Shown: positions 6,100 through 45,814 of the stretch, one piece after another | Layout of the letters: each line of letters starts with the position of its first letter | How positions within the stretch are numbered: the first letter of the stretch is position 1 | Position numbers and translations under genes: made by a program | Assembly (NCBI GenBank): GCA_020740775.1 | Contig: JAHEWK010000009.1 | Span: 1,612,001 to 1,676,000, forward strand | Direction of reading: 5' to 3' | Source: Ilyonectria destructans | Taxonomy: Eukaryota > Ascomycota > Sordariomycetes > Hypocreales > Nectriaceae | Length of the DNA stretch: 64,000 nucleotides | Notes under the pieces: generated by a model | Databases searched by the model: none | The model's input: the letters and a program-made list of their open reading frames with translations, nothing else | What the model was told of the DNA's origin: nothing

Positions 6100-6443
6100 A
6101 TGTCGCCATCTTCCAACGCTATTGCCCAAGGCTCCGTGTCAAGGTAAGATTACTCAGTCAATCCCGCTGTCTCATTTTGATTGCCCAAACCCACAGTAGA
6201 ATCTTTGCTGACATGAGCTCGCGAACTAGCCACCGCTCGGGCAACCCTGCCGCGCAACAAGGAATCCATGTCCCCCAATTCGCCTATAGCCCGGACGATC
6301 CTGTTAATAGACGGATGCAGAACCCAGACCACGTCGCTGGGACTCCACTGTTCGCTCGCGACCCCGATGCGAAGCGCATACTTGCTGCTGTTACGGAGCT
6401 TATTAACACGAGCCCGACACCGACCCCGAAGACATCTACATGA
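6100..6443 (+). CDS. RMQNP-family small protein, copy 1 (85 aa)
   Basis: Two exons, 6100-6143 and 6230-6443, with an 86-nt intron (GTAAGA donor, CTGAC branch point at 6208-6212, CTAG acceptor). The 44-nt first exon encodes an MSPSSN...QGSVS leader and ends in phase 2. The second carries the family core DDPVNRRMQNP, then AGTPLFARDPDAKRILAAVTEL, split here for length. No signal peptide, no cysteines and no membrane segment, so probably an intracellular small protein. The exon 1 length, intron phase and core are shared with nine other loci in this window, which is the main evidence that it is a real gene. An ATG at 6213, inside the intron's 3' end, is in frame with exon 2 and could provide an alternative start. 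Function unknown. Confidence 0.75.
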
Positions 6444-7101
6444 TAGGATCTTGGAAGCATCTCTGGACTTGTATGTTGGTTCCAGATCGACTTCAAACCA
6501 AACGATATTCATTTGGCGGTGGTTGACCTGATTTTCGGTGGTTGGGTTGTCTCTCTGGTGTCAGAATCCTCGGTACTGGTGTTGAAGGACCATGGCATTG
6601 TGTCTTATCAATGACATGCTGCCATTTGGACTATTCGGTTTTGTATCCCACGTCGGATATTATGTCTGCATGTAAGTATATTATATTACTGATTTGCTCT
6701 CAGTACTGTAAGAAAAAGTTGCACAAGCCTAGAAATCGGATTACTACGCATTATGTGTCTTCTCATTTGTCATCAGTGTTCTCTGTGTAGTTGAGGATCA
6801 GTAGAGTGTACCCTAACATGAGCTTTGAAGGTCATCTGGTCTATTTCCAGTCAGGTTCACCGGATCTTGCGGACCGCCTCAAGTGGTGTAATCTAATGCC
6901 ATGCGACAGACATTCCAGTGACTCAGCACAGTTAGAGGCGGCGTGGGTGAATGGGCTTGGCGAAAAGCGGTCCTACCCCCTCGCCGTTACAGTCAGATGC
7001 TGTATGACATTGCCTAATCAGGTGGCCCACGGGAAAAAGTGAAAGCCGGGGGAAAATGAAGGCACGGGAATACTGAGAGTACAGGAATAATAAAAGTTAG
7101 C

Positions 7102-7220
7102 GGTTGATCAAAATTAGCAACTGATCAAAATGAGCGATTGCCGAAAATCACCAATTGATCAAAATTAGCAAATTCTGAAATAAGCAAGTGCTCGAGATTA
7201 TTGATTGCTCAAAATTAGTA
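7102..7220. repeat. Imperfect short tandem repeat (TTGATCAAAATTAGC-like)
   Basis: The motif TGATCAAAATTAGCAA, or one- to four-base variants of it, recurs about five times at irregular spacing of roughly 18-45 bp. The units are too degenerate for a fixed period. Confidence 0.6.
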
Positions 7221-8915
7221 AGTGTGCAAATCGACAAGTACCCAAATCGATCGAATACGAAACCGATTGTACGTTGGAACCATGCTCAAGGTGCAACAGT
7301 TGCACACATGTTAGACTAGTCAATTCCAATTGCACGTGTGTTCTGTATTAATATGTTGGTCTAACGATTATTCTCGGATTTAAAACAAACCATCCAGGAC
7401 TGCGAAGCTTCAAATCTGAACCGGCCGTTGGTGCATGATTAAAATTGGTTCAAGGTGTGTTCCTCAGCAGTGGCCGCATTCACAGCGTGAAACGGCGATG
7501 GTAAGCAGATGAAGCAGGTGTGGGAGCCTACCACTTGGATATTCGCATTCCTTCGAACACAACGGCAGAAGTAAAGCGAACGGGTATGCTGACTCGTCTC
7601 ATCAGCATATTTAACAGCCACCCTTGACCACCCAAGTTTATACCGTAAATAGATAGTCGAGTAAGTCCAACATGTTAATTGCAAGCTCTTGAGTTACCCT
7701 GACACGATGGCCTTGTCAACCAGCGCTTCCTGCCAATTTCTGCAGAAATCTTGTCTCAGATTACCTAATTTCTATTTTCTGAAGTCGGCTAGTTCTCTGT
7801 CTTGTGTTGATGGGAGCTTACAATTAGTTGGTATTCTTTGTGCACCCTGACCGATGCTCCAGTCCTAGACGCCTCGGATGTGCCTTGCCGGGAATTTGTT
7901 CTCGTTGGTCGAGTTTTGTGCAGGCGGGCTTCATTCCGCAACGCCGGCACATTGGTGGGCGCTATGTAAGAACGCCAGAGGCTAAGCAGCCGAATGTCTG
8001 AACCAGCCACACCAACAGTTATTTCTTCTGAGTCTGTCATGCAGCTCTTGGCAGAGGGGCTCTTCCCCACCAAAACTCATGATACTTGGTTTTAATTGGA
8101 AAACTTGCCCAAATCCTTGTGGCTGTACCGAGCGAAGAATTTCGGACGCCCGAGATATCGCGGTGATTGACAACATGCAGTGCACAGGACCACAAAAGGG
8201 AACCTGAAACAGACTAGGCACCAGGTAATCACAGACGGAATTACAGCGCACTAGACACCACACGGCAAACACGGTGGTTTAGGATGCACTAGACACAAAG
8301 TTGGGAGTTGGTGGGGGGCTCCCATTACTTCGCCCCCATTCACATCTGTCTCCCACCACTTCACCCGCTGTCAACATCTGTCATGGTGCCTCTCTCCCGT
8401 GATACTGCGCCCGCCTCACGATTGACATCTTGATGGGCCACCAGTCTGATCCTCACGAACCTGCAGCTACTCCCCCTTGCACGCACGTCTTAAAACGAGC
8501 CTGGTCAATGGCTAAATGCAGGTGACATGTCAGATGTTACGTCAGTTCCAGCGGGAAACCACCAGCCCAGATCGTCGAGGCAGGCTCACTCGCCAAGCGC
8601 CCAGGCCCTGGAGTGGTAACACCTCAGCGCCACGATTTGTTAGTGAGCGGCGGCAGGCCGCATCCCTGTCTCTTATTTACTAGCCCAGGTACTATCCATC
8701 CTTCAGCGGCCTGGCAGGACTACTCCTATAGGGCAGTCTAATTCTTCCCCGAGACACAGGTCTCCAGTTTTCAGCCGGTCTGGAGAGACAATGAGTAGCC
8801 ACGCACTTTCCACTCTGCACTTTGCTGATACGCTTACTTCACCTGAAGGCTCTCTGGTGTCTTATTTAAACAGTTCTCCTTCTCTCTCTTACGGTCTCTC
8901 ATCTTACTCTCCATT

Positions 8916-8922
8916 TATAAAT
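8916..8922 (+). promoter_or_regulatory. TATA box of RMQNP-family copy 2
   Basis: TATAAAT lies about 195-200 bp upstream of the two candidate ATGs (9111 and 9117), in pyrimidine-rich sequence. Confidence 0.5.
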
Positions 8923-9110
8923 CCACTACGTCTTTATATCAGACACCAATCATTACCGTCACCCACATACCCGCAAATCTGCTTCCACATCCTTCGGTGA
9001 TCTTCACCTAAGCTAGTTCACTCTGCGCCTGCCTCATATACATCCCTCTCTTCATCACACATTAGCTCGACAGCATCAATCAGTTGGACTGCCGTGTGCG
9101 CATCACGACC

Positions 9111-9482
9111 ATGGCCATGTCGGTGTCTTCAACCATCGCTGCCAAAGGCTCTATACTAAGGTAAGACGACTCTGTCCATATTACCTCCTCACTCCCACTG
9201 TCAAGCTCTCAGGGCTAGGAAGCTGGTTGGGCCACAGTGTGAAACCCCTCTACTAACATGTACCCGCAAACTAGCAACCCATCGGGCAACCCTACCGTAC
9301 GGAGAACGACCCATATCCATCAAGTCGGCTACAGCTTGGAGGACCCCGTCAACAAACGAATGCAAAACCCATCCTACCTTGTTGGGACTCCATTATTTAC
9401 TCGGAACCCTAATGTCGAGAAGATGATCGCTGCAGTCGAGAGCCTTACACCTAAGCACGGCGGACTCTCCGTCAGTTCCTAA
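9111..9482 (+). CDS. RMQNP-family small protein, copy 2 (85 aa)
   Basis: Exons 9111-9160 and 9275-9482; the 114-nt intron has a GTAAGA donor, a CTAAC branch point (9253-9257) and a CTAG acceptor. A second in-frame ATG at 9117 would make exon 1 exactly 44 nt, as in most copies, so 9117 may be the true start. Exon 2 encodes SNPSGNP, then the core EDPVNKRMQNPSY and GTPLFTRNPNVEKMIAAVESL. It is the closest relative of copy 1, sharing SGNP and an in-frame ATG between branch point and acceptor (9258). No targeting signal. Function unknown. Confidence 0.78.
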
Positions 9483-11056
9483 AGCATCCATTTGCAGGGT
9501 GTCAGACCACATGAGCGGCCTTCAGGGTCGTGAATACAGCCATCTTTAAACCATTCAATCCTGCAATGAAGGCTTTACGATTTATGATTTCCTACGATTT
9601 GGTGTTGGTGTTCGTGGAAGATGGCATTTGACTTGTCAACAGCTCTGGCTCTCCCCTGGACCCTTGGGTCTTTTCCATGTTACATCAATTTTATATCTTT
9701 CATTTGGTTCCTTGTCTGTTCTTCATGTGACCGAATGTCATTAAAGAGACCCACGAAACGTCAAGATAAGGTTAGCTCCTCCATAGCGTTCAACACATCC
9801 GTGTGGAGAGAACCACTTTTATCCGCCGGCGTCCTCAGTGGTGTGGGAAGCAGACTAGTTTAATTAACATCAAGGAAGCGTAAGGTATATTGGTAGCGAC
9901 ATGTGTCAGGCTCTGAAAACCATCGAGGAAGAATGACCGAGGGACAAAGAGCGGGCGGAAGCGTCAATGGCAAGTCGCGCTGAAAATAAGCAGGCTATCG
10001 CCCTGAACTTAAGCTTCAGCTAGAGCATGGTAAGACAATTTCTCCTCATGTATGGCTACCATGTTTGCGCACCTGGGACTTCACCTGCCACCGTATACAA
10101 GATCCAAGACAAAACAAAGTCCGAGTCTGCAATGCGGCAATGCGGTTTGCGGATCTGGCGGGCGCCGGCGCGGCTCAGCGAACAGGTGGGTATTGGTTGA
10201 GCAGGGATTGATGGCGATCACCTCATAGTGCGCTGAGATCTGCGACTCCAAGCGGGGGTCTAGCGGAACGCAACACTGCTATTGGCTCTAATGCTGCGGA
10301 TGTGAAGCCAACGCAGAGCTGGGAATGTATCGGGTACCTCAGCCGAAACATTCTGAAGGCCGCTTGAGGTTAAAGCACGCATGAGGCTGGGATAGGACAT
10401 GGATACATGGATGGAGAAATACAATGAGAGAACGAATGGGCGAGTTGAGTCGTGCGTGCTGCGGCTGGGAGAGCGGATGGGAGGTCGCCAAGCATAATTA
10501 AGTCAAACATGGATAATCCTTGATATTTTATGAATGGCTGTATGCGGCTGCAACGCAAATGTCACCACGATCGAGGAATGGGGGAACACCAGATGATGAC
10601 GGAACGGGACAATTCACACCGCTATACTTTCCTGGATCCTTTGATTCACATCAATTGACACCCGGAATTTGTTTCGTATGCACTGCGAGAGAGCGAACCT
10701 CGCCCTGTGGCTCGTGCAGTGCAATTACAGCATAATAAACGGCAAGCCCTATTACATGCAACTAACTTAACATTTCGGTGATTTAGTCTGTCGTGTCTGG
10801 TAATCTTTGCCCTTGTCCGGAAGAACCATAGACTGGAAACCAAATATTTTATAAAAATCAATCCATTAAAAGAAACAGAAACACGAGCCCAACACAGGGG
10901 AGACGGAATGACATCACCCACCAACACCAACGCCAACACTAAGGCCAAAAGGAAACCATACATCACTGAGTTAGTTACCACCCACAACAATATTGAAGCT
11001 CTCAAGGTAGAACCGCATTGACAACGTAGAGGACTCTTAGCGACCCAAGCGCCTAG
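9483..11056. other. Intergenic, convergent 3' regions
   Basis: This lies between the 3' ends of copies 2 and 3. Only short overlapping frames without recognisable content. Nothing supported. Confidence 0.5.
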
Positions 11057-11431
11057 TCACCTTGGTGTCTTAGATGTCTTTGGCGTCTTTGTAAAAGTAC
11101 TCGCAGTAGTCGTAATGATTCGCCATACTTCAGGGTCGCGAGTAGCCAGCGGAGTCCCAAAAACGTAGAACGAATTTTGCATCCGTGCATTCACAGGCTC
11201 ACCGGGGTCGTAGGTGAGTCTTGGAATACGCATTGTTCTATATGGCGTGACAGGTTTATCTATGGCGTTGCTGTTTTGACGGGTGCTTATTAGCGAAAGG
11301 GATTCACCTCGTGGTACGGCAAGCAGGCTAGGCCAAGAGCTTGGCAACTGCGGTGAAGGGGTCAGATCGAACGAAAATTTGTCTCACCTCGTGACTGAGC
11401 CTTGGACAACGACTGTAGAAGATAACGACAT
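11057..11431 (-). CDS. RMQNP-family small protein, copy 3 (about 90 aa)
   Basis: Minus strand. Exon 1 is 11388-11431 (44 nt, ATG at 11431, MSLSSTVVVQGSVT) and ends in phase 2 before a GTGAGA donor. Exon 2 contains GEPVNARMQNSFY and GTPLATRDPEV, ending at 11057. Two acceptors fit the phase. One ending at 11286 gives 90 residues and a spacer comparable with copy 5, so I prefer it. One ending at 11328 gives 104 residues and has a better-placed CTGAC branch point. The C-terminus is Thr/Lys-rich (TKTPKTSKTPR). No signal peptide; function unknown. Confidence 0.72.
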
Positions 11432-11700
11432 GACAGTCGCATAGACGGATGAAGGCCACGATGTTTGACACCACTGGCTCGTCGTTCGACAAGAGGTGGA
11501 TCAGGTGGACAAATGCAAAGAAAAAAGTCGTGGTCTTGAGACAAGATTCCTTCTAGGATCGGAAAATATTTTCTGCTTAGTGGTGAGCAACGGAGAGCGT
11601 GGTCGTCCGAGTCAACGCAGCAAGAGGCCAAGAGAAGTAAAAATATGTTGATGAGAACACATGTGCTATGCCTCCCTCTAAGTAAGGGCGAACAGGAAGA

Positions 11701-11708
11701 CTTTATAG
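11701..11708 (-). promoter_or_regulatory. TATA box of RMQNP-family copy 3
   Basis: Read on the minus strand this is CTATAAAG, about 270 bp upstream of the ATG. The same octamer precedes copy 4. Confidence 0.55.
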
Positions 11709-12554
11709 AGAAATGCAGGGCATTGAAATCGAATGAAGCGTGCGCATGTTCGAAGTGTGCAACAGTCCTGTACCGGCATGAACCCTGACTCGAGCCACGG
11801 ATGCCCCTCCCCGTGCTCAAGGCTAGAGCTCGCCCGGTCTGAGCCGGATAAAACATTACATGAGATTCGAATGTATGATAGGTGAATAAACGGAATAAGC
11901 GGAATCAGCTGAAGTGTGCACGAAGTACATCGTTTCCCGGGGCCTCGACGCTGCTTAGCCATGTCTGTTTGTGACAACTGATCAAATCTCCCGACAGAAA
12001 GTTTATGAAGCGGGGGATTTTCGTCTGTATTTCCAGCATCACGCATAAAGTCAGAGAAGGGGAAAGTTGGAGATTGCATATGCGGGTTCTGGTTGGCCAA
12101 GTGTGCTGACACCAAGAGGATCCGATGTGAGGAAAGTCTGTGTGTCGTGAGGTGTCGGTGTAAGACGCTAATAACAAAACAGAGGGAACGATTATTCGGG
12201 TTCTGACCCTTTCGCCTCAGATATTGATTGGTGACTGCGCGTTTGCTGGGAAGGGGAATCCCTGCCGCTAAGTGTCACCCCACTCTCTAGCCAGGGAGAC
12301 AACAACTCGGGAACGTATGGCATTGGGTCCATCTCACCTGAATGACAATTGACCCCGCATTGGGGCCGGGGCTTTCCAGACAGGGACCGCCCTGCATCTC
12401 TCGTGGCTTGAGATGTGACCGATGACAATCCTCGGCCGCGTTCGTTTTTGGCATGCCGGCATCCGGATCCGCTCTGCACCACATCTTAAGCTAAGGGGGT
12501 GACACAGTAAGGGGTTGGGTCCGTAGCTTGCAGCTGAATGCCGCGTGTCACCGT

Positions 12555-12632
12555 CTCATCATCGGTGGTTTCCTTGTCAACGTTACAAGACGCCTCATCA
12601 TCGGTGATTTCCTTGTTAACGCTGCAAGATCA
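12555..12632. repeat. 39-bp tandem duplication
   Basis: Two copies beginning CTCATCATCGGTG, 39 bp apart. Most of the differences between them are transitions. Confidence 0.75.
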
Positions 12633-15444: not shown

Positions 15445-15452
15445 TATAAAAT
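15445..15452 (+). promoter_or_regulatory. TATA box of the sugar transporter
   Basis: ATATAAAA lies about 80 bp before the ATG at 15527, the usual spacing for a fungal gene with a short leader. Confidence 0.55.
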
Positions 15453-15526
15453 CCCCAAGCAGCCGGTATTCCTAAAACTCACTTGAATGAAACCACCCAT
15501 CCAAATCCTCCAATTATTCCGACAGT

Positions 15527-17325
15527 ATGGGACTCTTGTCTCAAAATGGTTCGTCAGGTGCTCCTGCGAAGGACCACACGCAACTGAAGGTCAAGACGAC
15601 TCGCACTAATATTATCGTAAGTCGCCTTGAAGGCCGTAGTCTGGCTGGAAACTGCTTACCAACGCGTTGTAGACAATCTTGGTGGCTGGTATGGGGAGTT
15701 TTGTGTTTGGATATGCCAATAACGCTATCGCCGGAAGCTTTGTACAAACCTCATTTGTGGAGAAATTTCTGAGTGATGGAAATGCCGATTCTGTCATTGG
15801 AGGTATCCTGGGAGCGTATGTATCGCGTTGCAGCAACTCTTGTAAAGAACTTTCGCTAATGGACTTTGCAGGTTCATGGGTGGAGGCCTTCTCGGCGCGA
15901 TCATCCAGGCCCCAATCTCGAACCGCTTCGGACGTCGCATTGCTACGGGCTCTGCAGCCATCCTTACGATTGTGTCTGGTGCACTCCAAGCAGGAAGTGT
16001 TCACATTGCCATGTTTATCGTCGCACGACTTCTCTGCGGAATCGGCGCCGGCATCGTCATCACCAACTGCCCAGTGTACATGAGCGAGATTTCGCCGCCA
16101 CACATCCGCGGCATGCTGGTGGGCAACCACGCTATCTCAATCGTGTATGCCTACATTTTCTCATCTCTGATGGCACTGGCCTTTAACTATGTGGACGCTC
16201 CATACCAGTGGCGTCTGCAGTTCGTCCTGCTCACTTTCTTTGGACTTGTGCTCTTGGCTTCGTTGGTCGCCCTCCCAGAATCTCCCCGATGGCTCTGCGA
16301 AGTGGGCCGTCACGACGAGGCGTGGCAAGTCCTTCAGCACCTCCACCAATCGAAAGACGACCCAGAATCTCACATAGCCAGCGCGGAAATGGCACAGATT
16401 CGAGCTCAGATTGAGACGGAGCGTAGCATGCCTCGAGGATATATGCATATTCTTCGCGCACCTCATCTCCGCCATCGAGCCATCTGCTCCATTCTGACGT
16501 GGATAATGGGACAATCTACTGGAATTCTAGTCATTGCCAATTTGACCCCGGTCTTCTTTGGCCAGCTTGGGTACGGTGTTGTTCTACAGCTTGGTTTGTC
16601 TGTTGTGTGGACGGTTTGCGCTCTGCTTGGATGCTACGTGAATGCGATATTGATGGATCGCGTTGGCCGAGTAAAACTTTTAGGTTTGTGTCTTCAAATC
16701 CCGTTCAGATTAATGCTGTTATCGGGAGATAGACTGACAAAATGTGCTGTTTAGTTGCCGGCGGTTATCTTTGCAGCATTGTACTGATTTTGGAAGCCGT
16801 CCTCCAAAAGTACTATCTCGGCAGCGAAAACAAGGCAGCCACCAACGCAGCAGTCGCTCTCTATTTTATCTTCATCTTCGCCTACGGTTCCACAGTGGAC
16901 TGTGCAGCATACGTCTACGTCTCTGAGATCTGGCCGACTCATCTCCGCAGTTACGGCAACACAATCGGGCTGGTGACATTTTTCGCCTGCGCGATAGGAT
17001 ACACGAGTCCGGCGTCACTGGCATTCGAACAAATCGGGTGGAAATATTACATGGTAATGATATGTGTCTGTATCGCATCGGCCACGGCGATCTTATTTTA
17101 CTGTCCCGAGGTAAGGTCCTCCGTGGCTCTGGTCTCTCCCAAACCCCGTCATGGCCATTTCTAATGCTCCCCCAGACTGCAAAACTCACCCTGGAAGAGA
17201 TTAATACCATGTTTGGTGACGAAGTGGCGTTGCAGGTACCGGAAGAGTTGGGGTTAAGTGAGAAAGAAAACAGCCGGTCGGAGGATGTAAAGGAGATTCG
17301 AGTCGAGAATGCCAGAGAAGCGTAA
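15527..17325 (+). CDS. MFS sugar transporter, five exons (516 aa)
   Basis: Exons 15527-15616, 15673-15815, 15872-16683, 16755-17110 and 17176-17325 join in consistent phases to a 516-residue protein, the usual length for fungal sugar-porter MFS transporters. Family signatures are present in order: an N-terminal G-rich first helix (AGMGSFVFGYANNAIAG), NRFGRR in the loop after helix 2, LLCGIGAG, PESPRWL at the end of helix 6, DRVGR in the second half, a conserved SEIWPTHLRSYG segment near helix 10, and CPETAKLTLEEI after the last helix, matching the family's PETKGLTLEEI. The hydrophobic pattern fits 12 helices in the plasma membrane with proton-coupled uptake of a hexose or disaccharide. The substrate cannot be read from sequence. 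It appears intact. Neighbouring genes are unrelated. Confidence 0.92.
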
Positions 17326-18492: not shown

Positions 18493-18904
18493 TTAGTTTC
18501 TTCTGCCGTTGTGTGTCGAACCCTTAGGTGTTATTGGTATCGGACTACCTGGGCTATCCATAAGGCTTGTAACAACAGCGAATACACCCCGCACACTTGG
18601 GTCGCGGTCGAAAAGTAGCGTGCCAGGAGTGTATGTTGGGTTCTGCATTCGGGCGCCCACGGGCTGTTGCGTATCGTGAACGAGGAATCGAGGGGTGGGA
18701 GTTGTTGTGTCATGAGCGCCTGGGTGGTCACTGTCGGCCGCGAAGTATTGTCAGCCGAGTGGTTCGACGGTCACGAGATGAGAGCATATTACTCCAGGTA
18801 GACGGAAATTGGCCTGAATTGGCGGAAGGAAACGAAAAACAAAGAAAAAAGGCATCCTACCTTGGCACGGAGCCTTGGACAGCGTTGGTAGAGGATGTCG
18901 ACAT
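18493..18904 (-). CDS. RMQNP-family small protein, copy 4 (93 aa)
   Basis: Minus strand, exons 18861-18904 and 18493-18730 with a 130-nt intron (GTAGGA donor, CTGAC branch point, ACAG acceptor). Exon 1 is again 44 nt (MSTSSTNAVQGSVP) and phase 2. Exon 2 lacks a useful internal ATG and becomes obvious only when the family splice pattern is applied. It reads FLVHDTQQPVGARMQNP, then TYTPGTLLFDRDPSVRGVF, ending with SPIPITPKGSTHNGRRN. Relative to the family core, Asn of PVN is Gly and Pro of GTPLF is Leu. Total coding length is divisible by three with no internal stop, and a CTATAAAG box lies 313 bp upstream. Function unknown. Confidence 0.75.
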
Positions 18905-19216: not shown

Positions 19217-19224
19217 CTTTATAG
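19217..19224 (-). promoter_or_regulatory. TATA box of RMQNP-family copy 4
   Basis: CTATAAAG on the minus strand, 313 bp upstream of the ATG. Confidence 0.55.
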
Positions 19225-21443: not shown

Positions 21444-21872
21444 ATGTCGACATCGTCCACCAAAGCCGCTCGAGGCTCTGTGTCGAGGTGACAACCCTTC
21501 CCTACTTTCCTTCACGTGATTCGATCCCTCACCCAACCTTTGCATTTTCCGTTCGTGAGCTTGAGCTGTGAGTTGAAGGGAACCCTCGGCTAACCAAAGC
21601 TTCCGCACGATAGCAACGTCCAAGACAACCATACCGTGCCACGTAGAACCACCAATGTTCCCCAGTTATTCGTCTATACCACCTCCTACGAACCCGTCAA
21701 TGCTCGAATGCAGAACCCCTCCTACATCACCGGCACCCCGCTGTTCTCTCGCGACCCCCACGCGGAACGAGTGGTCACCGCCCTGACGCTTACAACCCAG
21801 ATGTCTGCGCCACAAGCCGCTGGAAGCTTTAGTGATTTCGCAGGTTTGGGTGTGCAGTTTTCCACCAAGTAA
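21444..21872 (+). CDS. RMQNP-family small protein, copy 5 (100 aa)
   Basis: Exons 21444-21487 (44 nt, MSTSSTKAARGSVS) and 21614-21872; the 126-nt intron has a GTGACA donor, a CTAAC branch point and an ATAG acceptor. Exon 2 encodes TYEPVNARMQNPSY-type sequence (here SYEPVNARMQNPSYITG), then TPLFSRDPHAERVVTALTL, and finishes with SDFAGLGVQFSTK. The ending G-x-Q/D-F-x-x-K recurs in copies 7 and 9. No signal peptide or membrane helix. It is the cleanest consensus-like member. Function unknown. Confidence 0.8.
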
Positions 21873-22364: not shown

Positions 22365-22742
22365 ATGTCAACCCTGCGGACGATCTGTATCGGAGGGAGG
22401 GGTACCTGGTCCGCCTAAAGGGAGACCGGGGTACCGAAAAGACCGTTCCGGATGATTGCGGCCCTTAGGACTTGTTCCAACTTTAATCTTGACTTTAGGA
22501 TATCTCGTACAGCATTTCACATCCACCAAGTCTTCCGCGATACAGAGCGACCGGTTAGTGCACGAATAATACGCAACCCCGGCACCCAATGGTTGGCTTG
22601 CTACCCGAAGGTGCCCCGAGTATTACAATTGTTGAAGGCTTTGGTACCGGCACGTGCTCCAAAGCATCACACAGGAACTCTTCACATACGAGCAAGTGGC
22701 ATTCATGTTGGCACTCCGGCGTCAGATCTCCCCTCCAAGTAA
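22365..22742 (+). pseudogene. RMQNP-family copy 6, strongly diverged or decayed
   Basis: Exon 2 (22499-22742) enters in phase 2 after a TTTAG acceptor and encodes FHIHQVFRDTERPVSARIIRNPGT, matching the HIHQ...PVNxR...NP...GT order of copy 2, then LLKALVP and a C-terminus SDLPSK like copy 9. The core is about four residues shorter than in other copies and GTPLF is lost. A candidate 44-nt exon 1 (22365-22408, MSTLRTI) has the family length and phase, but its donor GTCCGC is poor. The frame has no internal stop. It could be a divergent functional gene or a recent relic; I lean to a relic. Confidence 0.45.
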
Positions 22743-24008: not shown

Positions 24009-24524
24009 ATGACAACCCATCCAACCAATTCTGGCCTTGGCTCCAGATCACTGTTAGACACCCTTTCCTTCCACCTGTTCTGTCCCAATCCTCTGTTCCG
24101 CTCGTGGCCCGAAATCCCCACTACCAGTTCAATGTGAAAGATTCTACATCCCTTGTAATTATCCTTTCCATTAGCCCCAATATTATGTTCTGCAGTATGC
24201 AATCGCTCCTGACCCTGTCGCTCTATCTCAAGGTGCACGCTACACGAACCGTTCCACTTACAAGAACTTGAGAGTTCCAGGAATGCCTCAGCCGCCTCAG
24301 CCACCTGTGGCAGGAACACCCATGATCCCGTCAACGCACGAATTCTGGACCCGTCATATAACCCCGGCACTTTCCTATTCGTCCGCAACCCGCATGTCCA
24401 GCAAGTCATCGAGGCTATTGAGAGTTTCGCGGCCGCGACGTCACCACCAAATGCATCATTGTTGATGAAGAATTCTGGGCAGGATATTAACCTTGCTAAA
24501 ATAGGGGCCCAATTTGAGGTCTAG
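24009..24524 (+). CDS. RMQNP-family small protein, copy 7, diverged (95 aa)
   Basis: The proposed exon 1, 24009-24052, is again exactly 44 nt, phase 2, with GGC-TCC (Gly-Ser) at the conserved place (MTTHPTNSGLGSRS). Its donor GTTAGA is unusual but acceptable. A 228-nt intron, the longest in the family, ends at TTCCAG (24280). Exon 2, 24281-24524, encodes HDPVNARILDPSYNPG, then TFLFVRNPHVQQVIEAIESF, ending GAQFEV. Thus Met-Gln-Asn of the core is Ile-Leu-Asp and Pro of GTPLF is Phe, while the framework is kept. No internal stops; total length is divisible by three. Function unknown. Confidence 0.6.
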
Positions 24525-28409: not shown

Positions 28410-29163
28410 ATGTCGATTACTTTCTATAACGCTAGCCAGGGTGCTACTCATAAGTATGTCAACCTCTCTAGATCTTTCTCATCAGTTCACACTCCCTCCT
28501 CCTCCCTCCTCCTCCCCCATCCAAATTTCCACGCTCTCGGTCGTGGAGGGCTTGCGGATCGGTGAAGACCACTTGCTAACAAGCCATCCCAACTCCAGTC
28601 ACTCTTTGGATATGAAGAATGTGACCCATGGAACCACTAATGACGACCATAATCTTGATAATACCCATGGACTTGTCCATACACATGCGTCTATCGACCC
28701 CAATATGTTCGTCGATACTCAGAGACTTGTCGATGCTTATGGGTCCGTCAACGCCGATGAATCGGACAAAAGTCATGCTTCTATCGGCGTCAATACATCT
28801 GTTCCTACTCATACACATGCCGATATTCATGAGTCCGTGGACGTCGATATGGCTGTCAATACTCATGTCCCCCTCAATACTGATAAGTCCATCGCCGCCG
28901 ATGAACCCGTCAACACGCGAATGCAGAATCCGCTCTACGATACTGGGACCCCGTTATTCGTTCGCAACCCCTCTACCCAACATTTGGTCAATGTCGCTAC
29001 TGGGCTCACTCACTCTACAAACTTTCCCCAGAGCGTTGGAGGCACGAGCAACTTTACGGACATGCAGTCTCAGTTTGAAGACATGGGGTCTCAGTTTGAA
29101 TCCGCTAATACTCTGTTTGAATCTATCGATACTCTGTTTGAATCCATCGATACAAGTATTTAG
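28410..29163 (+). CDS. RMQNP-family protein, copy 8, expanded with internal repeats (202 aa)
   Basis: Exon 1, 28410-28453, is 44 nt and phase 2 (MSITFYNASQGATH) with a GTATGT donor. The intron is 145 nt with a CTAAC branch point and CCAG acceptor. Exon 2 is 28599-29163. Between exon 1 and the core lies an extra ~100-residue region of degenerate repeats rich in Thr, His, Asn, Asp and Val (units like NTHxxVDxxxSVNxD). Then comes the core ADEPVNTRMQNPLY and GTPLFVRNPST. The C-terminus has four tandem 7-residue units (SQFEDMG, SQFESAN, TLFESID, TLFESID) extending the family's C-terminal Q-F motif. No signal peptide. The expansion is in frame, which argues that the gene is under selection to stay open. 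Confidence 0.75.
28640..28910 (+). repeat. In-frame degenerate repeat within copy 8
   Basis: Short units containing ACTCATA/GTC(A/G)AT/GATGA-type triplets repeat imperfectly. They encode the Thr/His/Asn/Asp-rich insertion. Confidence 0.55.
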
Positions 29164-34215: not shown

Positions 34216-34222
34216 TATAAAT
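34216..34222 (+). promoter_or_regulatory. TATA box of RMQNP-family copy 9
   Basis: TATAAAT, 291 bp upstream of the ATG. Confidence 0.5.
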
Positions 34223-34506
34223 TCTGATCCGTCGACCTCGAAAACCCCAACAGCCCTCTCGGTGTATACTCCTACCTGGCCTCGATCTTCTCTTATCGTT
34301 GACTCCTTCCTTACGTCCCCGACATTGAAACATTCACGTTTTGGGTGAACCTCGTTTCCATCGTCGTACCCACACCCAAACAATTTCCCGGCCTTCTAAG
34401 TGAGCATCCCATTACATACCCTAACTCTACTTTCTAGTCAACCCCTTGTTGATGCAAGACTGGCAATGCAGCAGTATAAACTGTCGAAACCAAATCTGTG
34501 ATCCCT

Positions 34507-34900
34507 ATGCCGTCGCCCACAGTGGATGATGGCTCCCAAGGGGCTTTCACAAGGTAAACCGCCTTGCCATCTTCTGTATTATCAATTCAAGATTCCCCGC
34601 TACCCAGGCACCATACCCTCCCAAGTTTCGCGGCGGTAGGAATACTCTACTGACAAGTCTTTGTACTACAGTAACAACGTGGACTCCACTTGCACTGCCA
34701 ATGTCTCTCGCTTCGTCCAAGATACGCAAGATCCCGTTAACGCCCGAATGCAGAATTCGACATACACTCCTGGTACCCCCTTGATAATTCGTCTATTGCC
34801 AGCCGCTACAAGCACTAGTACTAGCTCAGGCGGCCTGATGAAAGTATCAAGGGACTGGTCAGAAGATGCCGTTGCCGGAAGCGACTTTGCTTCTAAATGA
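34507..34900 (+). CDS. RMQNP-family small protein, copy 9 (91 aa)
   Basis: Exons 34507-34553 (47 nt, one codon longer than usual, phase 2, GTAAAC donor) and 34672-34900 (CTGAC branch point at 34650-34654, ACAG acceptor). Exon 2 encodes SRFVQDTQDPVNARMQN, then STYTPGTPLIIRLLP, and ends SDFASK. FVQDTQDPVNARMQN closely matches copy 4. After GTPL the usual F-x-R-D-P is replaced by IIRLLP and the next helix-like segment is missing, so the C-terminal half has diverged. Function unknown. Confidence 0.7.
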
Positions 34901-35236
34901 TGTCGCCTTTGTGTTCGTGGCGGAATTTCTGATTACAATCGGCAAGTTGTTACATGGCTGCTTGGGAACTAGTTGTTTTCAGCCATCATCCCAGGAGATC
35001 ATCCTGGGCATCAGTTCTGTTGCTGCCTCTCTGACTTTTAACATCTCTGTGGTTGATCATCTGCTAAAATAGAGACGTGGGATGGAGCATTTAAAACTTA
35101 TTAATAAAGATATTTTACTTACACCTTATGGGCATTCTTGAGAGATAGTTTGTTGCAGCTAGTCATTGGCGTGCCGTATAGAATGAACCTAACGGATGCA
35201 GTTTGGTTCCATGCCAAGCTGAAAGGATAGCAGGTA
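34901..35236. other. Spacer between copy 9 and the Tc1 element
   Basis: Contains the 3' end of copy 9 and ordinary AT-rich sequence; nothing else seen. Confidence 0.5.
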
Positions 35237-36645
35237 AAGTGGGGTTCCACAAGTCTTGCAACGCTACGCGACATTCTCGCGCCCGGCGTCAAAAATCAGA
35301 ACCGCGATTTTTACTCCTTCATCTTCAATCTTCCATAAATTTTTATTATGTCGTCCAATTTGCGATCCTTTGGGACTATTATATCCGTAAATCGTCAAGG
35401 AAAGCAACGCACCAAACCAGAACTTCGTGCGGCTATTATTGCGGCCGTACAAGCTGGAGAGGTAAGGAGCACTGTTGCGACGCGTTTTGGGGTGTCGACG
35501 GCCACAATCAGCCGTCTGCTTCAACGGCTCGAGACAACTGCATCAATTGATCCGAAGCCCCAGTCCGGGCGTCCTCCAAGTCTGACGCCACGGGCAAAAA
35601 GGGCTATTATTCACGCTGTGCGACAGGACGAAGGTATCTCAAGGAAGGACCTGCTGGATGACCTGAGTCTCGAGGTGAGCGCCACGACTGTCCGTCGGGC
35701 TTTAAATAAGGCCAGCTTGCGCAAATAGAAAGCTAGAAAGAGGATCTTTTTACGAAAGGAAGATACAGCTCAGCGGCTTTAATTTTTATGTAACTGGGCG
35801 AAAAGAGAAGAAGAATTAAGTGAGGTATGGCTGAGTGTTTAAGATGCCCTCATCTGCTACTTTACGCCCTACTCACACTCTCTAGATTATCTGCTCTAAT
35901 AAGTACTCTACGCAAAATAGCAGCGCTGCACCAAATATCTGGGTCTGGAGATTCACCCACGAGGCCTATAACCTAAAATTCGTCAATACTAAGTCTTATG
36001 GTAAAGGCAATATGACGATAATAGTGTGGGGTGCGATTTATAAGGAGGGCTGGAGCAAGCTGGTTATTATAACTTGAGATTCGGCCTCTAAGCGCGGCGG
36101 CTATACCTCAAATAGCTATATTAAAGCTCTGACTTCTGGGCTTCTTCCTGATTATACGGGAGTTCGGCATTTTCAGCAGGATAATACTAGAATCCACATA
36201 TCAAAGGCGTCAATGGCATTCCTTCTAGAGCAGGGTATCTCTCTTATTGACTGGCCCCCCCACAGCCCTGATTTAAACCCCATTGAGTACGTCTGGGCTA
36301 GACTAAAGAGAGACCTCTATAAGAAGTTCCCTTGGGTCGCAAAATTGAAGAAAAACGCAGCCGATATCGCGAAATTTAAAGCATGCTTGGAAGCAACGTG
36401 GGACGCTATCCCCCAGGACTTTATTCGGGGCCTAATGGAGTCAATGCCGCGGAGGGTTGAGGCCTGCCGCAAGGCTAGGGGTTGGTATACAAAATATTAA
36501 AGCCACGCCTCTGAGGAATCCAAAAATGCAGTTACTTTTATTGTAGCTAGTCTGTAGCTTGTGGAATTGGTATCTTTATTACATGTGTTCCGGTCAGGGT
36601 GGTGGTGTAAGCGGGGGCTGTTGCAAGACTTGTGGAACCCCACTT
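35237..36645 (+). mobile_element. Inactive Tc1-type (DD34E) DNA transposon, 1409 bp
   Basis: Perfect 26-bp terminal inverted repeats (35237-35262 and 36620-36645), beginning AAGTGGGGTTCC, flanked by TA on each side (35235-35236 and 36646-36647). The size, TA duplication and transposase remnants are those of Tc1/mariner elements. The perfect termini suggest fairly recent insertion, although the transposase inside is dead. Confidence 0.93.
35348..36500 (+). pseudogene. Tc1-type transposase, broken
   Basis: The N-terminal part (35348-35728, 126 codons) has a helix-turn-helix DNA-binding region (RFGVSTATISRLLQRLE) and a second paired-type segment with the GRP motif (QSGRPPSLT). It ends at a TAG. 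Several stops and a frame change follow. The catalytic part is open again from about 35.9 kb: IWVWRFTHEAYNLKF, a stop at 36075-36077, then HFQQDNTRIH and DWPPHSPDLNPIEYVW. The last two supply Asp and Glu with exactly 34 residues between them (DD34E). The first catalytic Asp, expected in an S-D-E-Y/C-S context, reads S-N-K-Y-S here (35895-35909). Both changes are G to A, compatible with RIP. The product cannot be active. Confidence 0.92.
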
Positions 36646-36647
36646 TA

Positions 36648-38646: not shown

Positions 38647-39411
38647 CTAGCAAGACTTGACGGTGGTGTACTTGCAGGACTTGCTGGGGCCGGAGCTGAG
38701 CTTCTTGGGCTCGTTGCCGGGAGTGGTGCCCTGGAACTCGGTGCAGATCTCCTTGACGGAGGTGGCGCAGGTGTTGGTGATGGTGGAGACATCGCCCTTG
38801 TTGGAGTTGATACCGGTGAGGAGCTTGCCGTTGTAGGCCTTGACGTTCTTCACAATGACATTGCGGGTGCCCATGGTCTTGCAGTTGCCGCAAGAGCGGT
38901 AGAGCTTGCCGAAGTCGACAGCGGTGAAGCCATCAATGGTAACCGTTCCGAGGCCGTTGTGCTGGATGATCTTGTCCTCAGCGCCAGTGGCACCTCCACC
39001 CTTGACGAGGGCGTTGCCGTTACCCTTGATGGAAAGGGCGTCCTCACAGACCTTCTTCCACCAGACATTCTCGATGGTGCAAGAACCCTTGCAGTGAACA
39101 CCCTCGATCTGGTCAGCACCGATGATGACGTTCTTGAGGGTAGCACCGTTCTCGAGAAGGAAGACGGCGTCAGCGTCGCCACCCTCAGCCTGGCCAGTGC
39201 ACTTGACACCACGGCCGTAGGTCTTCATGCCACCATCGAAGGTACCCTTGATGGTCTGGACAGACTTGTAGGTGACGGATCCCTTGGAGGCGGGGATAGG
39301 GAAGCTAGCACGCTTCTCAAGAGCTCCCATGGTGTTGGGAGTGACGTTGCCCTGGGGGACGGCAACAACGGCCGAAGCCAGGAGAGCGGTGAGAAGAGCG
39401 GAGAACTGCAT
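38647..39411 (-). CDS. Secreted pectate lyase, PL3 family (254 aa)
   Basis: Intronless minus-strand frame of 254 residues, the usual PL3 length. It starts with a clear signal peptide ([20 protein letters not shown]) and a short propeptide ending at Lys-Arg (residues 33-34). The mature part has the PL3 pattern: [25 protein letters not shown], then [34 protein letters not shown] and [30 protein letters not shown] and a Cys-rich end. These match the parallel beta-helix lyases that cleave polygalacturonate by calcium-dependent beta-elimination. Acidic loop residues around DADAVF and EDALSIKG probably bind calcium. Strong C/G bias in third positions suggests high expression. It appears intact and would act outside the cell on plant pectin. 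Confidence 0.95.
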
Positions 39412-40702
39412 GATGAATGATTGAAAAGTGGTTGGTAAGTCGGTATTGAGTTGGCTTTAGTAAGATAAAAAGTGTCTGAAGAGTGACAAAGCTGTAACCA
39501 CCAGGGCTAATGAGTGTGAAAGAAGTTGAGAGAACGAACGAGTGAGTGAGTGAAAGTTGATAGTGATGAGGAAAGCAGTTCATCTACAGACTTCGTGGTG
39601 CCTTATATATCAAGAACCTGCCTCCTTGACCCATCTCTCAATGCGACAACATTATCAGCTCCTGCTATCCCTCCCAACCATTGCAATCTTGCAGATACGA
39701 GCTCGACCCGGGATTGTGGATGCCTGTGGATTGTCTACTAGACGCCATTTGGCAAACATGTCACTCGACCGCCCCTATTGCGACGGGGTTTCAGGACCGC
39801 CCCACCGACGAGGCTAGATTACAGGGCTCGGCAACATCGCGAATGTGGCATGGTGTGACTGCTAACAGTGGGACTTGGCGGTTCTACTGCGGCGTACGGG
39901 GTTTTATTCGTGGAAATACCAAGACAAAACAAGACAGGTTCGGATGTTTGACCGAATGACATTCCCCCTGCCCTAAACAACGGTGACATGCCAGTTCGCA
40001 CCCAATTCGATCACTGCGAGCGGCGAACAAGCTCGGATCCAACCGACCGCGTCGCAGGGCGGGAATGAACGAAGCCAAGGGAAACACGCCACCGGATTTA
40101 GAAGGGCTTAATCTTTGGTAAGCTTAAATTTAACGCTGATGGCGGCCACAGTAGAGTTCGCGACGGCGCGCGGAAGACTTAAGCGGCGCATGGTTCGCGC
40201 GTCGGTCCCAAGGGTTCAACAGAGCAGCGCCCGATCAACAAGGCCACGGATTCCACGATGCATGCCAGATTTTGGCCAAGATCTGGTGACATCCATTCGA
40301 TCCCCATCGCAGCCGACAGGCCGATAACCAGTGAGAAAAGAAGGTTCGTAATAAAAATGGGCTGGGGTGTGAAACACGCCAGGATCCTCCTTGGCTAACG
40401 CCGCCTGCTTCAGCTCGGCCCTCCAGGAGGCTCCGAGTTCCGTGGAGGTGAGGGGATGGTTGCCAGTTGGCATTGAAATGCGGTGAGTGCTGTATTCCTC
40501 CGTGGAAAATCTCTCGGCTCTGAAACGCTCGATTCAAGGTGTTGAATAACGCACCAATCCCGTTCCACGTTCGGTAAACTTAATCAGATGGAGGCTGATC
40601 CACCTCAATAATGCCAAAATCACAGAGCATGAAATGTTTGTGTCATTGTCTAAGCAATATTTTCTTAGGCATCATGTTGAATATCCCACAAACCCAGCAA
40701 CG
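39412..40702. other. Intergenic, pectate lyase promoter and 3' region of the ankyrin gene
   Basis: Includes the AG-rich leader (39420-39560, read on plus as GTGAGTGAGTGAAAG) and the TATA box of the lyase. No gene supported in the remainder. Confidence 0.5.
39602..39610 (-). promoter_or_regulatory. TATA box of the pectate lyase gene
   Basis: On the minus strand the sequence is GATATATAAGG, about 190 bp upstream of the ATG. Confidence 0.5.
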
Positions 40703-43561
40703 TCAAGGCCATGAAGCTTGTGCAGTGGCGGGTGGTGCTGAGTTGCATTCACTTTCCGCCTCTTCCGTTCCCACGCGCTCCTCTTTAGAAGACGTCTTTG
40801 GGTCGTCTAGTTTCCGAGGCAAGCTTCGCATTTTCGATCTCAGCTCGTCTAGGGTATCCTCCAAGGCTGATGTGGCGGATTCCCAGCTCCCTCCACGAAC
40901 CAAACTGTTGATCCCCCGATACCAAGCTGCCAAATCTGGCTCCTTCCAATCTTCCTTTTGCCTGATGAGAGCATCAAGATTCGTGTTCGAGGTGGTCATG
41001 TCCTGTTCAGCTGCGGCCCGAAGAAGCTTCGCTAGGGCGTCAATTTCATCCTGTAGGTTTCGGCATAACATGTTGTTGTACAAAACAAGGAAGGCATCTT
41101 GGTGTTCAGGGCTCATGTGTCGTGCATCTTTAAGATTTGTTGCGTCGTCTCTGTAGTAATAAACATTATCCCACGCCGTAAGCCCACTAGAGTTACGCAT
41201 GTCGGTATTCATTCCCCGAAGCTCTAGGGAATCCAGGTAGTGCATGGCATCGACGGTGCAGTAACGAGCTACATAGTGTAACAGGTTCTGCGAGTATCCG
41301 TCGACAAAATGCAATGACGCGCCGGCGTCGACGAGGTTCCGCAAGGGTGGCATATTGCCAAAACTTAGTACAACCATTGCTGGTGTCCGTCCGTTCGTGT
41401 CTGCTACCTCGAGGTCGTCGCCCTTGACCAGTAGCAGACGCAAAACCTCGTCTGCCGTCTTTTGATCCACTATGTCTCCCATGTAGTGTAAGGGTGTTTG
41501 GCCCCATTTCTGGCGCTTCGTCGGGGATGCTCCGGCTACTAGCAACAAGGCCACCGCCGGGGCGGAGCCGGCCCATGTTGCATAGTGCAGTGCTGTCATG
41601 CCACGGTCGTCTTGCTGGTCCACACGGCAGTTGGCCCTGAGCAATACTTTCATGCATAAGATGTGGCCTTTCAAGGCGGCCAGCATAAGTGCTGTCCGTC
41701 CTCGCCAATCTTTCTCGTTGATATCGGATTTTGCCGCAATCAAGTGCTCCAGGCCCTGCACCCAGTGCTGTTGCACTGCCATGTGGAGAGGGCTGGAGCC
41801 CTGCTCGTTATACTGGCCAATTGCCCACGGTTCCTCCTCGAGAGCCCGTGGGAGACCGCACTCGAGAATCACTGCTTGGTGAACCTTTGTTGATTTTAGG
41901 TCAACCCCATCATTAGCCCATGACCGTGCTTGTTGGAGCAGGTGGACTTCTCTGTCGCTTAGTTTATCGTGCATCGCTTCATTCGCCGCCATTGCCACTG
42001 TACTACCAAGTGTCAGCTTCCCGTCCCCCACAGGACCAGGGAACTCATACCTCGGTAAGCCTTGCTTTGGTAACAAGTCCTTCCAGAGAAAGAGTAAGTA
42101 CTCAACAGAGTCATATACTCCATTGCTAATGGCATACTGCATAATACCCTGTTAACAACTACCGCATCCCGAGACCTCACTGTTATTAACACGTACCTCT
42201 AGTAATCCAAAGTTGTCCTCCCTTTGGTCATCTGGGAAGTACCTAACTCCTTGCTGAAGAAAATCATCGAATGTTCCTCCGTAGAGGATTTGCCCCCAAA
42301 CATCATGAAACGCTGGCAACACCCTAGCTGGTCTTAGCGATAGATCGAGGCTTGTTATGCTGCCGTATGAGGCTTGGATATATAGCAATCCGGCCATATC
42401 CGTTTTGGGAGCCGGTACTCCACTCTTATGTATGAATCGTCTCCTGGATTGCATTCTCTCCAATTGCAAATTCTTCTCCCGAAGTTACTGACGGAATTGT
42501 AGCTGACAAGCCAGGATCCTAACAAAGGTTGAAACCAACGTGGGGATTGGAAACATCCTTGGCAAAAGTGACATCGGCATCTGCAATCTGGCGAGCACTT
42601 GCTTTTTCCTATAGGCAGAATGTTCTGAAATTGTAAGAAGCTATTTTCTTGTTCGTAGGTAGTGGGACGACTCCTGTGTGAGATGGAAGTTAATGTCATC
42701 TCCTGTCTCTCCTGTCCTGGTCGTGGCGTTTTTCCAGTGCTCCCTCGTTGTTTGTCTTCACTTATCGACGATGAAAGGGTCGACTCAAGTTTGTGCCTAG
42801 CTGTTATATCCACGTTGTTGGCTCCCGATTCCGGCGATGACCCCGGCAATTCTTCAACTCTCGAAGCACTTTTCGGTGGGGGCGATTTCGATTCGGCAAG
42901 CATAAATAACTCGAACCGGCGCAAAAGTTCCATGTTGGGTCTGTGAATATGTCAGTAACGGAGCTGTCGGGGTGGCCTTCGGCGTGCTCGTTGTACCTTA
43001 AGCTCACCAGAGCCATATTATCTGTGATGAGCCTATTATTCATGGCCAATTGTTGATTCCCTAGATTCGTCATAGCCATATGTAGAGTTGATTTCGCCCC
43101 TTCTGCCTTTAGTCGGAGTTTTCCCATCCTGTTCTCTTTACGGAGCCATTTTCGCTTCTTGGCCTTCCACTTGTCGTCGTCAACCTTTTCTGTGCAGCCG
43201 TCGAAAACTGCCCTGAGCTCATCCACCATCTCTGCTGCTCTTTGAGCTGACCGAGCTATCAGGCCATCGTCTAGGCGCTGCTTGGAGTCTTTTTCGCGCG
43301 AAAGCGACTCGGAAGTCTTCTTGGCTCCCTCGATAAGAGCCCCAATCAAATCAATCTGGCCGTCTCTTAGCTCTCCCCTCTTAGCTCTCAGGTACAAGCA
43401 GCCCCCGCAGTATAAGAACTAACCTCGTCTCTCAAAGCATCGCATTCGCTCTGGATCTCGGGGATGCCTCGAACCAAACTCGCCACGCTCCGCCCAGCGA
43501 GCAACATCTGGGCGACAGCGATGGAGCTCGCCAAGGCTCCGAGGATCTCGAGTCCGGACAT
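40703..43561 (-). pseudogene. Ankyrin-repeat protein with fungal STAND-type N-terminus, one apparent frameshift
   Basis: Minus-strand exons 43424-43561, 42997-43379, 42197-42940 and 40703-42148. The last probably carries a further 48-nt in-frame intron (42003-42050: GTATGA donor, GCTGAC branch point, GTAG acceptor). The N-terminus (MSGLEILGALASSIAVAQML...ECDALRDE) resembles the helical fungal N-terminal domain of PigL_N/SesA type found on STAND and ankyrin proteins. The middle has a Cys-rich C-S-P-D-C-R-C-R-C-H segment and the SPRWFQPLLG motif seen in fungal ankyrin proteins. The C-terminal half has about five ankyrin repeats (GSSPLHMAVQQ, GRTALMLAALKGH, GMTALHYATWAG, GQTPLHYMGD, GRTPAMVVL) and an acidic tail. 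Exon 3 is one base short of the required phase: the frame shifts near 42370-42410, between VEYRLPKRIW and LLYIQASYGS. This is a true lesion, a sequencing error or an unusual intron. Possible role: intracellular recognition or self/non-self response. Confidence 0.75.
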
Positions 43562-44223
43562 GACGGGTTAGCTAGCCTTTCGCGGGCCCGGCGACAGATA
43601 ACTGGGAGGATTAGTAACTTATTGGGCGCGTATCGGTCGCGTACTTGAAGGAGTAAATGCCAGAGTCTGCGGGGAAAAGAAGAGGGGGCTTACGAACTCA
43701 CTGTTCCGCCGACGAGCCTCGTCTTGGCGCAGCGGGCTCCCTCGGGCGACCCAAAATCTGCCTCGTTGTCCGCTGCAAATCAATGACCAGCGATTTAGAG
43801 GCGCAGCCTGGCCAGTACATGAGTGGCTCAGTTTGGGCGAATGGGATGGAAAGGCGGCGGCAACACAGGGCTAACTCAACAAAGGGCGAATAATGGCAAC
43901 GAGAACTAATACACTATCTCTGATGCGGTGTAGCGAGCCAGATTGAGAAGTCTACTTAGGCGGGAGAGGATGTTTTTGAATCACTGCATGTTGAAGAGAC
44001 AGTAACACTCTACTATGTGTGTACTGATCTGAGGTTTATACTTTGCTAAAGAAACCTTAATAAAGGGAATTTAAAGAGTGACTTCTATATCTAAGTTGGA
44101 GAATTGTATTCTTATTATACCCAGGTGGGATTCAGATTCTCAATACCCTCTAAGCTATAATACCCCCTCTGTGATAAAATGCTGACAGTCTCCCACATAA
44201 GCTGTGATTCAAGCGTCTCTGGT
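43562..44223. other. Intergenic, no gene supported
   Basis: Promoter of the ankyrin gene on its left and the upstream flank of a 5S rRNA gene on its right. Nothing else seen. Confidence 0.5.
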
Positions 44224-44343
44224 ACATACGACCATAGCTCTTAGAAAATACGGGATCCCGTCCGCTCTCCCTTAGTCAAGCTGAGAAGCGGCGAATTAGT
44301 ACTCGGGTCGGTGACGACCGGGGAATCCTCGCTGTTGTATGTT
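44224..44343 (+). rRNA. 5S ribosomal RNA
   Basis: 120 nt from ACATACGACCATAG to GTTGTATGTT. The ends pair (ACATACGAC with GTTGTATGT, helix I). The typical GGGATCCCGTCCGCTC loop region and the hairpin GGTCG-GTGA-CGACC are present, with GCGA/UCGC pairing below it, so the fold is intact. A run of nine T follows immediately, the RNA polymerase III terminator. Dispersed single 5S genes outside the rDNA array are normal in filamentous ascomycetes. An identical copy lies at 54601-54720 in opposite orientation. Confidence 0.95.
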
Positions 44344-44350
44344 TTTTTTT
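44342..44350 (+). terminator. Pol III T-run terminator of the 5S gene
   Basis: Nine consecutive T residues overlapping the 5S 3' end. Confidence 0.8.
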
Positions 44351-45394
44351 GGCCTTTAAAACCAATTTTAAATGGGTCTATTTGTGGACGAAGATCGTGT
44401 GTCTTGGTGGGGAGGAGTATTCCTGTTGACACGCAAAAGTCACCTGGCCCCACCTCTCTGCCCCTGAGTGAGCGCACTGAACAATAGTATCGAGCCCCCT
44501 GCAGCCACCCAACCTACAGGCACTTGAGCCCACTGACGACTGCCGAGACCCTCCCCCGGGCGACAGAACTGAATGCCTTTGCAGACGATACTCCAGCACA
44601 AGTATTGCTCAACGTAGGGCCCGGAGGAGCCGGTAATTAACTTGTGCTATAAAGCACTCATTTTTGCAATACTGCTCCAAACTCCACTTGTCCTTCCCTG
44701 CCACACAACCAAGATTGTGTGGACCAGCGCTAGGATAGCAAGGCAATGCACAAATAGCCAAACCAACCTCTCGCCGCTATTGCCTACGCCGTGAACTTTG
44801 CCGCCACCCCCATCCGAGTCATATTGCCATCTGCCAATATTGCTGGCTCTAGGAAGGTTTCCTTTGGATTACCCATCGAAGCATAGTTCGGCGAGACATT
44901 TGTCATTCACAGTTCAATTCGTAGAATACTTCTAGATGAAGACGCAACACTAGCAGACACTCGTAACACAATTACTACAACAACAATCTGGAACTAACAT
45001 AGAACTGCGCTGGCTGAAGCTATGCGACTGTTTTTACATTACTCTCCGTGTAATTTAGTTGAGTGTTACAGCCAACTGTCTTGGTTCTGGTGCTGCCATC
45101 TCACGTGTTAACCTTGGTGATCTACTGGATACATTGAACTCACGAGTACATCACAATTAGTGTGAAGATATTCAAACACAGAAGATATAACAAGAAACCG
45201 GAAACATAGCATATATATGACCGTAGTGACCCTCTAACCCTCCAGCACAAAGAGATGCACATCCGCTCAAAATGAATGCGCAGGTATCAATGCGAGAATG
45301 ACATGACTAAAACCCCATTCCTAATATTGACCAGCCCACGCTACACTAGACCATGGTCTATATAAACGTTGCATTCTGCACAGACAAATGCCGC
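44351..45394. other. Intergenic, no gene supported
   Basis: About 1 kb of ordinary sequence between the 5S gene and the 3' end of family copy 10. Confidence 0.5.
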
Positions 45395-45814
45395 TCACAA
45401 ATTGTCAAAGTCGATGTTTCGTTCGGTATATTGGGGCAAGGACGGCTTCAATGTCGTTGAAGAAAGGTCCGCAACCGCGTCAACTATTTGCTGTGCGTCT
45501 GGGTCACGGATGAATAATGGAGTACCAGAAACGTAGGAAGAATCCTGCATTCGTTCGTTGACGGGTCTTTCGGTATGCACAATGGGATGTGTGGCGGTAG
45601 CGCTGTCTGCAGTATTTCTGGAGTACAGGGACTTGTTAGCAAAGTGCCTCCTTTAATTACCACGTAATGCAAGGAGTGTCTGGATGAAAAGAATCCAGGT
45701 GGGGTGATCGGGTGTCTGAGGATGGGACATAGGATTCGAGTGTCGGGAGTGGCAAAGGAAAGTTTCTTACCGTGATAAGCAACCCTGGGAAGCATTGACT
45801 GAAGGGGTGGACAT
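45395..45814 (-). CDS. RMQNP-family small protein, copy 10 (88 aa)
   Basis: Minus strand, exons 45771-45814 and 45395-45617, with a 153-nt intron (GTAAGA donor, TCCAG acceptor). Exon 1 is 44 nt and phase 2 (MSTPSVNASQGCLS). Exon 2 encodes VHTERPVNERMQDSSYVSG, then TPLFIRDPDAQQIVDAVADL, ending NIDFDNL. The core has Asp-Ser in place of Asn-Pro. It is the only copy right of the Tc1 element and lies between the two 5S genes. CTTTAAAAG on the minus strand at 46093-46101 lies 280 bp upstream. No signal peptide; function unknown. Confidence 0.77.

Follow-up and report, generated by a model that had tools for sequence, protein, structure and literature searches.

Does the 64-kb window analyzed here (the whole stretch from 1612001 to 1676000 of contig C74, in the 71.7-Mb assembly of the soil-borne Nectriaceae fungus Ilyonectria destructans used for all genome searches) hold a genuine gene family built around the motif PVNxRMQNPxYxxGTPLF, and what could its small proteins do? 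By sequence comparison, the family is real and lineage-restricted, and we did not find it described in the literature searched; the function proposed below is tentative. The original prediction was of an unrecognised protein-coding family with ten copies in the window. Constraint on the core motif, together with six copies having relatives of their own, bears out the family; as to the count, nine copies have the core and a two-exon gene model, with the tenth, placed at 22365, being a decayed relative.

Gene models and constraint on the core

The nine copies, all within 40 kb, fit two-exon models with the second exon carrying the core PVNxRMQNPxYxxGTPLFxR (core positions are those of a six-frame search, in which c4 and c6 matched only part of the pattern).

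c1, 6100..6443, + strand: exon 1 6100-6143, 86-nt intron, exon 2 6230-6443; core at 6300; 85 aa
c2, 9117..9482, + strand: exon 1 9117-9160, 114-nt intron, exon 2 9275-9482; core at 9345; 83 aa; alternative start 9111
c3, 11057..11431, - strand: exon 1 11431-11388, 117-nt intron, exon 2 11270-11057; core at 11197; 85 aa
c4, 18493..18904, - strand: exon 1 18904-18861, 130-nt intron, exon 2 18730-18493; core at 18651; 93 aa
c5, 21444..21872, + strand: exon 1 21444-21487, 126-nt intron, exon 2 21614-21872; core at 21693; 100 aa; relative P0006 crosses the same junction
c6, 24009..24524, + strand: exon 1 24009-24052, 228-nt intron, exon 2 24281-24524; core at 24327; 95 aa; diverged, core PVNARILDP
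c7, 28410..29163, + strand: exon 1 28410-28453, 145-nt intron, exon 2 28599-29163; core at 28906; 202 aa
c8, 34507..34900, + strand: exon 1 34507-34553 (47 nt), 118-nt intron, exon 2 34672-34900; core at 34733; 91 aa; without R(D/N)P
c9, 45395..45814, - strand: exon 1 45814-45771, 153-nt intron, exon 2 45617-45395; core at 45565; 88 aa

Database protein P0001 is the c1 model letter for letter, and P0002 equals c2 read from the alternative start, two codons upstream. Exon 1 is 44 nt long in eight of nine copies and 47 nt in c8; either length puts the intron in phase 2, the phase seen in all nine. The expected branch-site form, CTRAC, lies just 5′ of the acceptor in seven of eight models (c6 apart; c3 has CTAAT, found by eye); the splice signals of c6 are a weak donor, GTTAGA, and CTTAC before the acceptor. 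With core, splice position and exon 1 length common to the nine copies, the predicted conservation of protein and splice pattern holds. Exon 2 of c7 (28599-29163) also has a long insert of imperfect repeats before the core, rich in His, Asp and Val; the other window copies are without it.

The core pattern, drawn up after the copies had been seen, occurs nine times in the window and in none of 40 length-matched sequences from a first-order Markov model. With a family profile built without c10, the tenth copy, the nine open frames score 79-107 bits; the top score over 20 Markov windows was 10.2 bits. The decayed copy stands apart:

c10, 22515..22742, + strand: decayed relative; open frame, gapped and altered core

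Its core reads PVSARIIRNPGTQW and its reading frame stays open to 22742; the open frame 22419-22739 scores 18.3 bits (E 1.3e-4) with the same profile. No matching first exon was supported for c10, nor was the proposed start at 22365, and the copy was missed by all six genome queries described below and by BLASTP at 1e-4.

From the pattern of differences among paralogs, the core is clearly constrained at the protein level. In ten copies and 21 codons, the proportion of nonsynonymous differences (pN) was 0.24 and that of synonymous differences (pS) 0.69, with differences at codon positions 1, 2 and 3 of 0.31, 0.20 and 0.56. Constraint was weaker in exon 1 (pN 0.33, pS 0.59; seven copies) and in the helix-like part behind the core (pN 0.39, pS 0.70; eight copies). 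All these values were computed among paralogs only.

Similarity between copies is centred on exons. Among 28 pairs of eight copies (c6 and c10 left out; some random segments overlapped copies), the 95th percentile of random segments was exceeded by 27 pairs in exon 2, 18 in exon 1, 10 in the intron, eight upstream and five downstream, so that the flanks, predicted to be unrelated, are mostly so, with weak similarity in some pairs. In a long-repeat search of the window the family repeats cover exon parts only, some overrunning by a few bases on the intron or the 5′ side. As for a common promoter word, no 7- to 10-mer rose above the largest count of 100 random sets; TATAWA is present within 450 bp upstream in six of ten copies tested (c1-c4, c8 and c11, with c10 excluded) versus 16% of random segments, a post hoc comparison.

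Relatives, descent and transcription

Genome searches were made with six queries (c1, c5, c9, P0010, P0009 and P0006), and the copy counts are lower bounds. They led to the nine window copies and one more, at least ten places in 71.7 Mb:

c11, contig C6, 448013 down to about 447537, - strand: intact frame, 119 aa; outside the window

Like c8, it is without R(D/N)P. Two weaker matches belong to known copies: C74:1657710-1657814 (E 0.035) is exon 1 of c9, and C74:1640594-1640710, matching P0010 at E 0.015, falls inside the c7 frame; the rest had E 0.23 or worse. The intron of c11, 117 nt long and starting at C6 447966, is of the GC-AG type; window copies have GT-AG introns. In an all-versus-all BLASTP of 1137 open frames, with the family and its antisense or frame-shifted echoes set aside, a 127-bp inverted pair and one short repeat close to 46.3 kb were all that remained.

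Across 5.8 billion proteins, three profile searches yielded 11 distinct relatives, the candidates that passed numbering 8 out of 799 (E up to 1), 9 out of 2104 and 4 out of 6377 (E up to 10); all eight with a species name come from Ilyonectria or Cylindrodendrum. These eight are hypothetical proteins (Ilyonectria EDB80DRAFT_880778 and 880779, BKA56DRAFT_675581, 733799 and 619071, and AUP68_00029; Cylindrodendrum hubeiense G7Z17_g984 and g9523). They have the same core and, where annotated, the same first exon, and several pair with one window copy; each is annotated singly as hypothetical.

Scans with single proteins, whose reach is limited to close relatives, confirmed none of 15 viral and none of 135 prokaryote stretches. 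Pfam had no match for seven members and, among 18, three unrelated matches at E 0.18-0.2, none credible, in agreement with the prediction that the motif belongs to no recognised family; a PDB sequence search gave a single chance-level match (E 1.6). The idea of a core inside longer proteins was rejected, as an alignment with a 299-aa open frame at its head, reaching proteins of up to about 520 aa, added no new protein. No description of the family was found, judging by search listings, and no fungal paper with the string RMQNP, judging by titles and abstract starts. As far as the searches reach, this is an orphan family of the Ilyonectria-Cylindrodendrum lineage.

A tree of 19 rows has six starred pairs (c1-P0003, c2-P0004, c3-P0005, c5-P0006, c8-P0008 and c11-P0009), the last joined with full support by the Cylindrodendrum protein P0011. 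The tree did not resolve c7 and its likely relative P0010, and it gave c4, c6 and c9 no supported partner. Pooled over the six pairs, 113 of 126 core positions are identical versus 312 of 419 in the aligned rest. On this sequence comparison, six paralog lines are maintained separately and also occur in other sources. As each of the six is paired with its own relative, three of them in a named sister species, these copies predate that split. The three proteins in question, P0003, P0004 and P0005, are all placed on a 1,556,962-base contig of that species, Ilyonectria sp. MPI-CAGE-AT-0026, so the two species probably have part of the cluster in common.

P0006 and P0009 run continuously across the intron position; P0006 also extends upstream into the counterpart of the c5 5′ untranslated part (by eye). 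Both carry the source label lgn, which we take to denote assembled sequencing runs. Their continuity would fit spliced transcripts and suggests that the family is transcribed and spliced.

Neighbouring genes

Scanning 20 open frames, chosen from 471 of at least 60 aa, identified the following neighbours.

15846-17161: sugar transporter, two open frames, between c3 and c4
35339-36497: Tc1/mariner-like transposase pieces (relic), HTH and DDE_3 matches, between c8 and c9
38650-39456: pectate lyase, between c8 and c9
40706-42151: ankyrin protein, between c8 and c9

The ankyrin gene gave the idea of an amyloid/NLR-linked motif, which we rejected as the genome queries gave no further open frame at a convincing score. 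The closest I. robusta database relative of c7 is AUP68_00029; as PF03211 corresponds to PL3, the product of the next locus tag, AUP68_00030, may be the pectate lyase next door. In the paper on that genome (PMC6994667), AUP68_00030 is reported as up-regulated at all three infection stages, and PL3-family genes likewise.

The inverted pair (44224-44350 and 54594-54720), 127 nt long and 99% complementary over a distance of 10 kb, resembles a small mobile element. In each 4-kb block as far as 60000, indices of repeat-induced point mutation (RIP) were on the unaffected side of the usual cut-offs. At the window edge GC falls to 0.36 (62001-64000) and TpA/ApT is 1.01 over 60001-64000, which suggests a RIP-affected repeat.

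What the proteins may do

By hydropathy, no secretion leader was found in c1-c9 (top N-terminal 12-residue mean 1.12) and no membrane segment (top 19-residue mean 1.04). The original prediction was right in this and missed single cysteines in c6, c8, c9, c10 and c11; there are 0 or 1 across c1-c9 and c11. The products would therefore lack the signal peptide (by hydropathy only) and the several cysteines of classical secreted effectors, and they are probably intracellular. Structure prediction, also proposed earlier, gave for c1 (18 sequences) an AlphaFold2 model with mean predicted local distance difference test (pLDDT) 61.3 and predicted template modelling score (pTM) 0.32. Residues 2-28 stay under pLDDT 50, the ten-residue blocks between 31 and 80 have values of 67-79, and a helix is predicted at residues 60-75, behind the core; the low confidence would fit disorder outside the core. 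That R(D/N)P and a helix-like segment follow the core is true of most copies only, c8 and c11 having no R(D/N)P. In six of the eight R(D/N)P copies (c1, c3, c4, c6, c7 and c9) the hydrophobic moment of the helix was matched by ≤3.1% of its own shuffles; c2 and c5 fail.

Given the helix in the model, its moment and the absence of leader and membrane segment, we propose that the core, with the helix in most copies, makes one contact surface which would dock onto one partner protein, the remainder being a variable tether. We put at roughly 0.4 the probability that this is a lineage-restricted family of mostly unfolded, intracellular proteins, transcribed and translated, that dock one partner through PVNxRMQNPxYxxGTPLF and, in most copies, the helix. 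Such a proposal builds on the common gene structure, the conserved core, its protein-level constraint and the six paralog-relative pairs. Growth of the family was probably by local duplication and inversion followed by divergence, after which each copy would keep the contact surface while middle and tail vary.

Several observations speak against docking by this surface. The c1 model is poor overall, and a fold search with it gave 0 matches among solved folds. The helix is not universal, since c8 and c11 are without R(D/N)P and most tested relatives fail the moment test (among P0003, P0005, P0006, P0007 and P0010, only P0003 is at ≤0.05). Core pS is close to saturation, and core pN is lowered because the core was picked for its conservation. 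In the c1 pair the core is no better kept than the rest (17/21 versus 54/64), and the margins in three further, more distant pairs are 13/21 versus 44/83, 16/21 versus 41/90 and 12/21 versus 31/62.

Might the proteins be exported from the fungus unconventionally, with the plant as their target? Such non-classical effectors would also be small, lineage-restricted and less conserved outside the core; a pectate lyase gene is near the copies, and the c7-like AUP68_00029 is one locus tag from a gene reported as infection-induced (PMC6994667). Yet the main text of that paper has 0 tags beginning AUP68_0002 and thus does not show that infection regulates the family. Hydropathy reveals no leader, intact copies have no more than one cysteine each, and we regard this role as unlikely. 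A selfish or sex-related family is suggested by SKC1, a 70-aa spore-killer candidate of Fusarium verticillioides, which is likewise a small orphan protein with no known domain and few relatives (PMC4978907). SKC1 differs in being one gene, present or absent by genotype; the Ilyonectria family is multi-copy, six of its copies are kept as separate lines elsewhere, and no Fusarium protein was among the matches of the three profile searches, which makes such action very improbable.

Precursors of ribosomally made, modified peptides would be short and multi-copy with a conserved first exon, much as here; however, conservation is strongest in the core and not in a leader, no secretion leader is seen by hydropathy, and UstYa, the one modifying enzyme looked for, has its sole match on contig C74 at 1185150, some 427 kb away from where the window begins. 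We find this reading hardly credible. Scatter over both strands and the Tc1/mariner-like relic close by could hint at transposable element fragments or gene-like non-coding repeats. We rejected these, in line with the original prediction, at almost negligible probability: copy number is low (at least ten places and the decayed c10), similarity peaks in exons with codon-position bias, separate lines are kept in other sources, and neither shared ends nor further copies were found.

The docking of one partner could be taken further. The ten intact paralogs might form a private pool of docking subunits able to stand in for one another, one contact motif with alternative tails for a single fungal complex; we consider this quite unlikely. 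The TLO proteins (Med2 paralogs) of Candida albicans are similar in this respect: they are small and intracellular, have expanded into a family and share one conserved contact region. They differ in their subtelomeric location and in their kinship to a conserved subunit of Mediator, whereas no such link turned up for the Ilyonectria family, with no direct test aimed at one. If true, interchangeable subunits would be a newly born counterpart of expanded adaptor families, diversified in the Ilyonectria-Cylindrodendrum lineage.

Orphan genes are common; the orphan family described here is clustered and has kept both its intron and a sharply conserved core, and six of its paralog lines are also found in other sources. 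Annotation can miss such genes, as from I. destructans only c1 and c2 were returned by the protein database. The role of a newly arisen protein, and the reason for keeping many versions of it, become directly testable.

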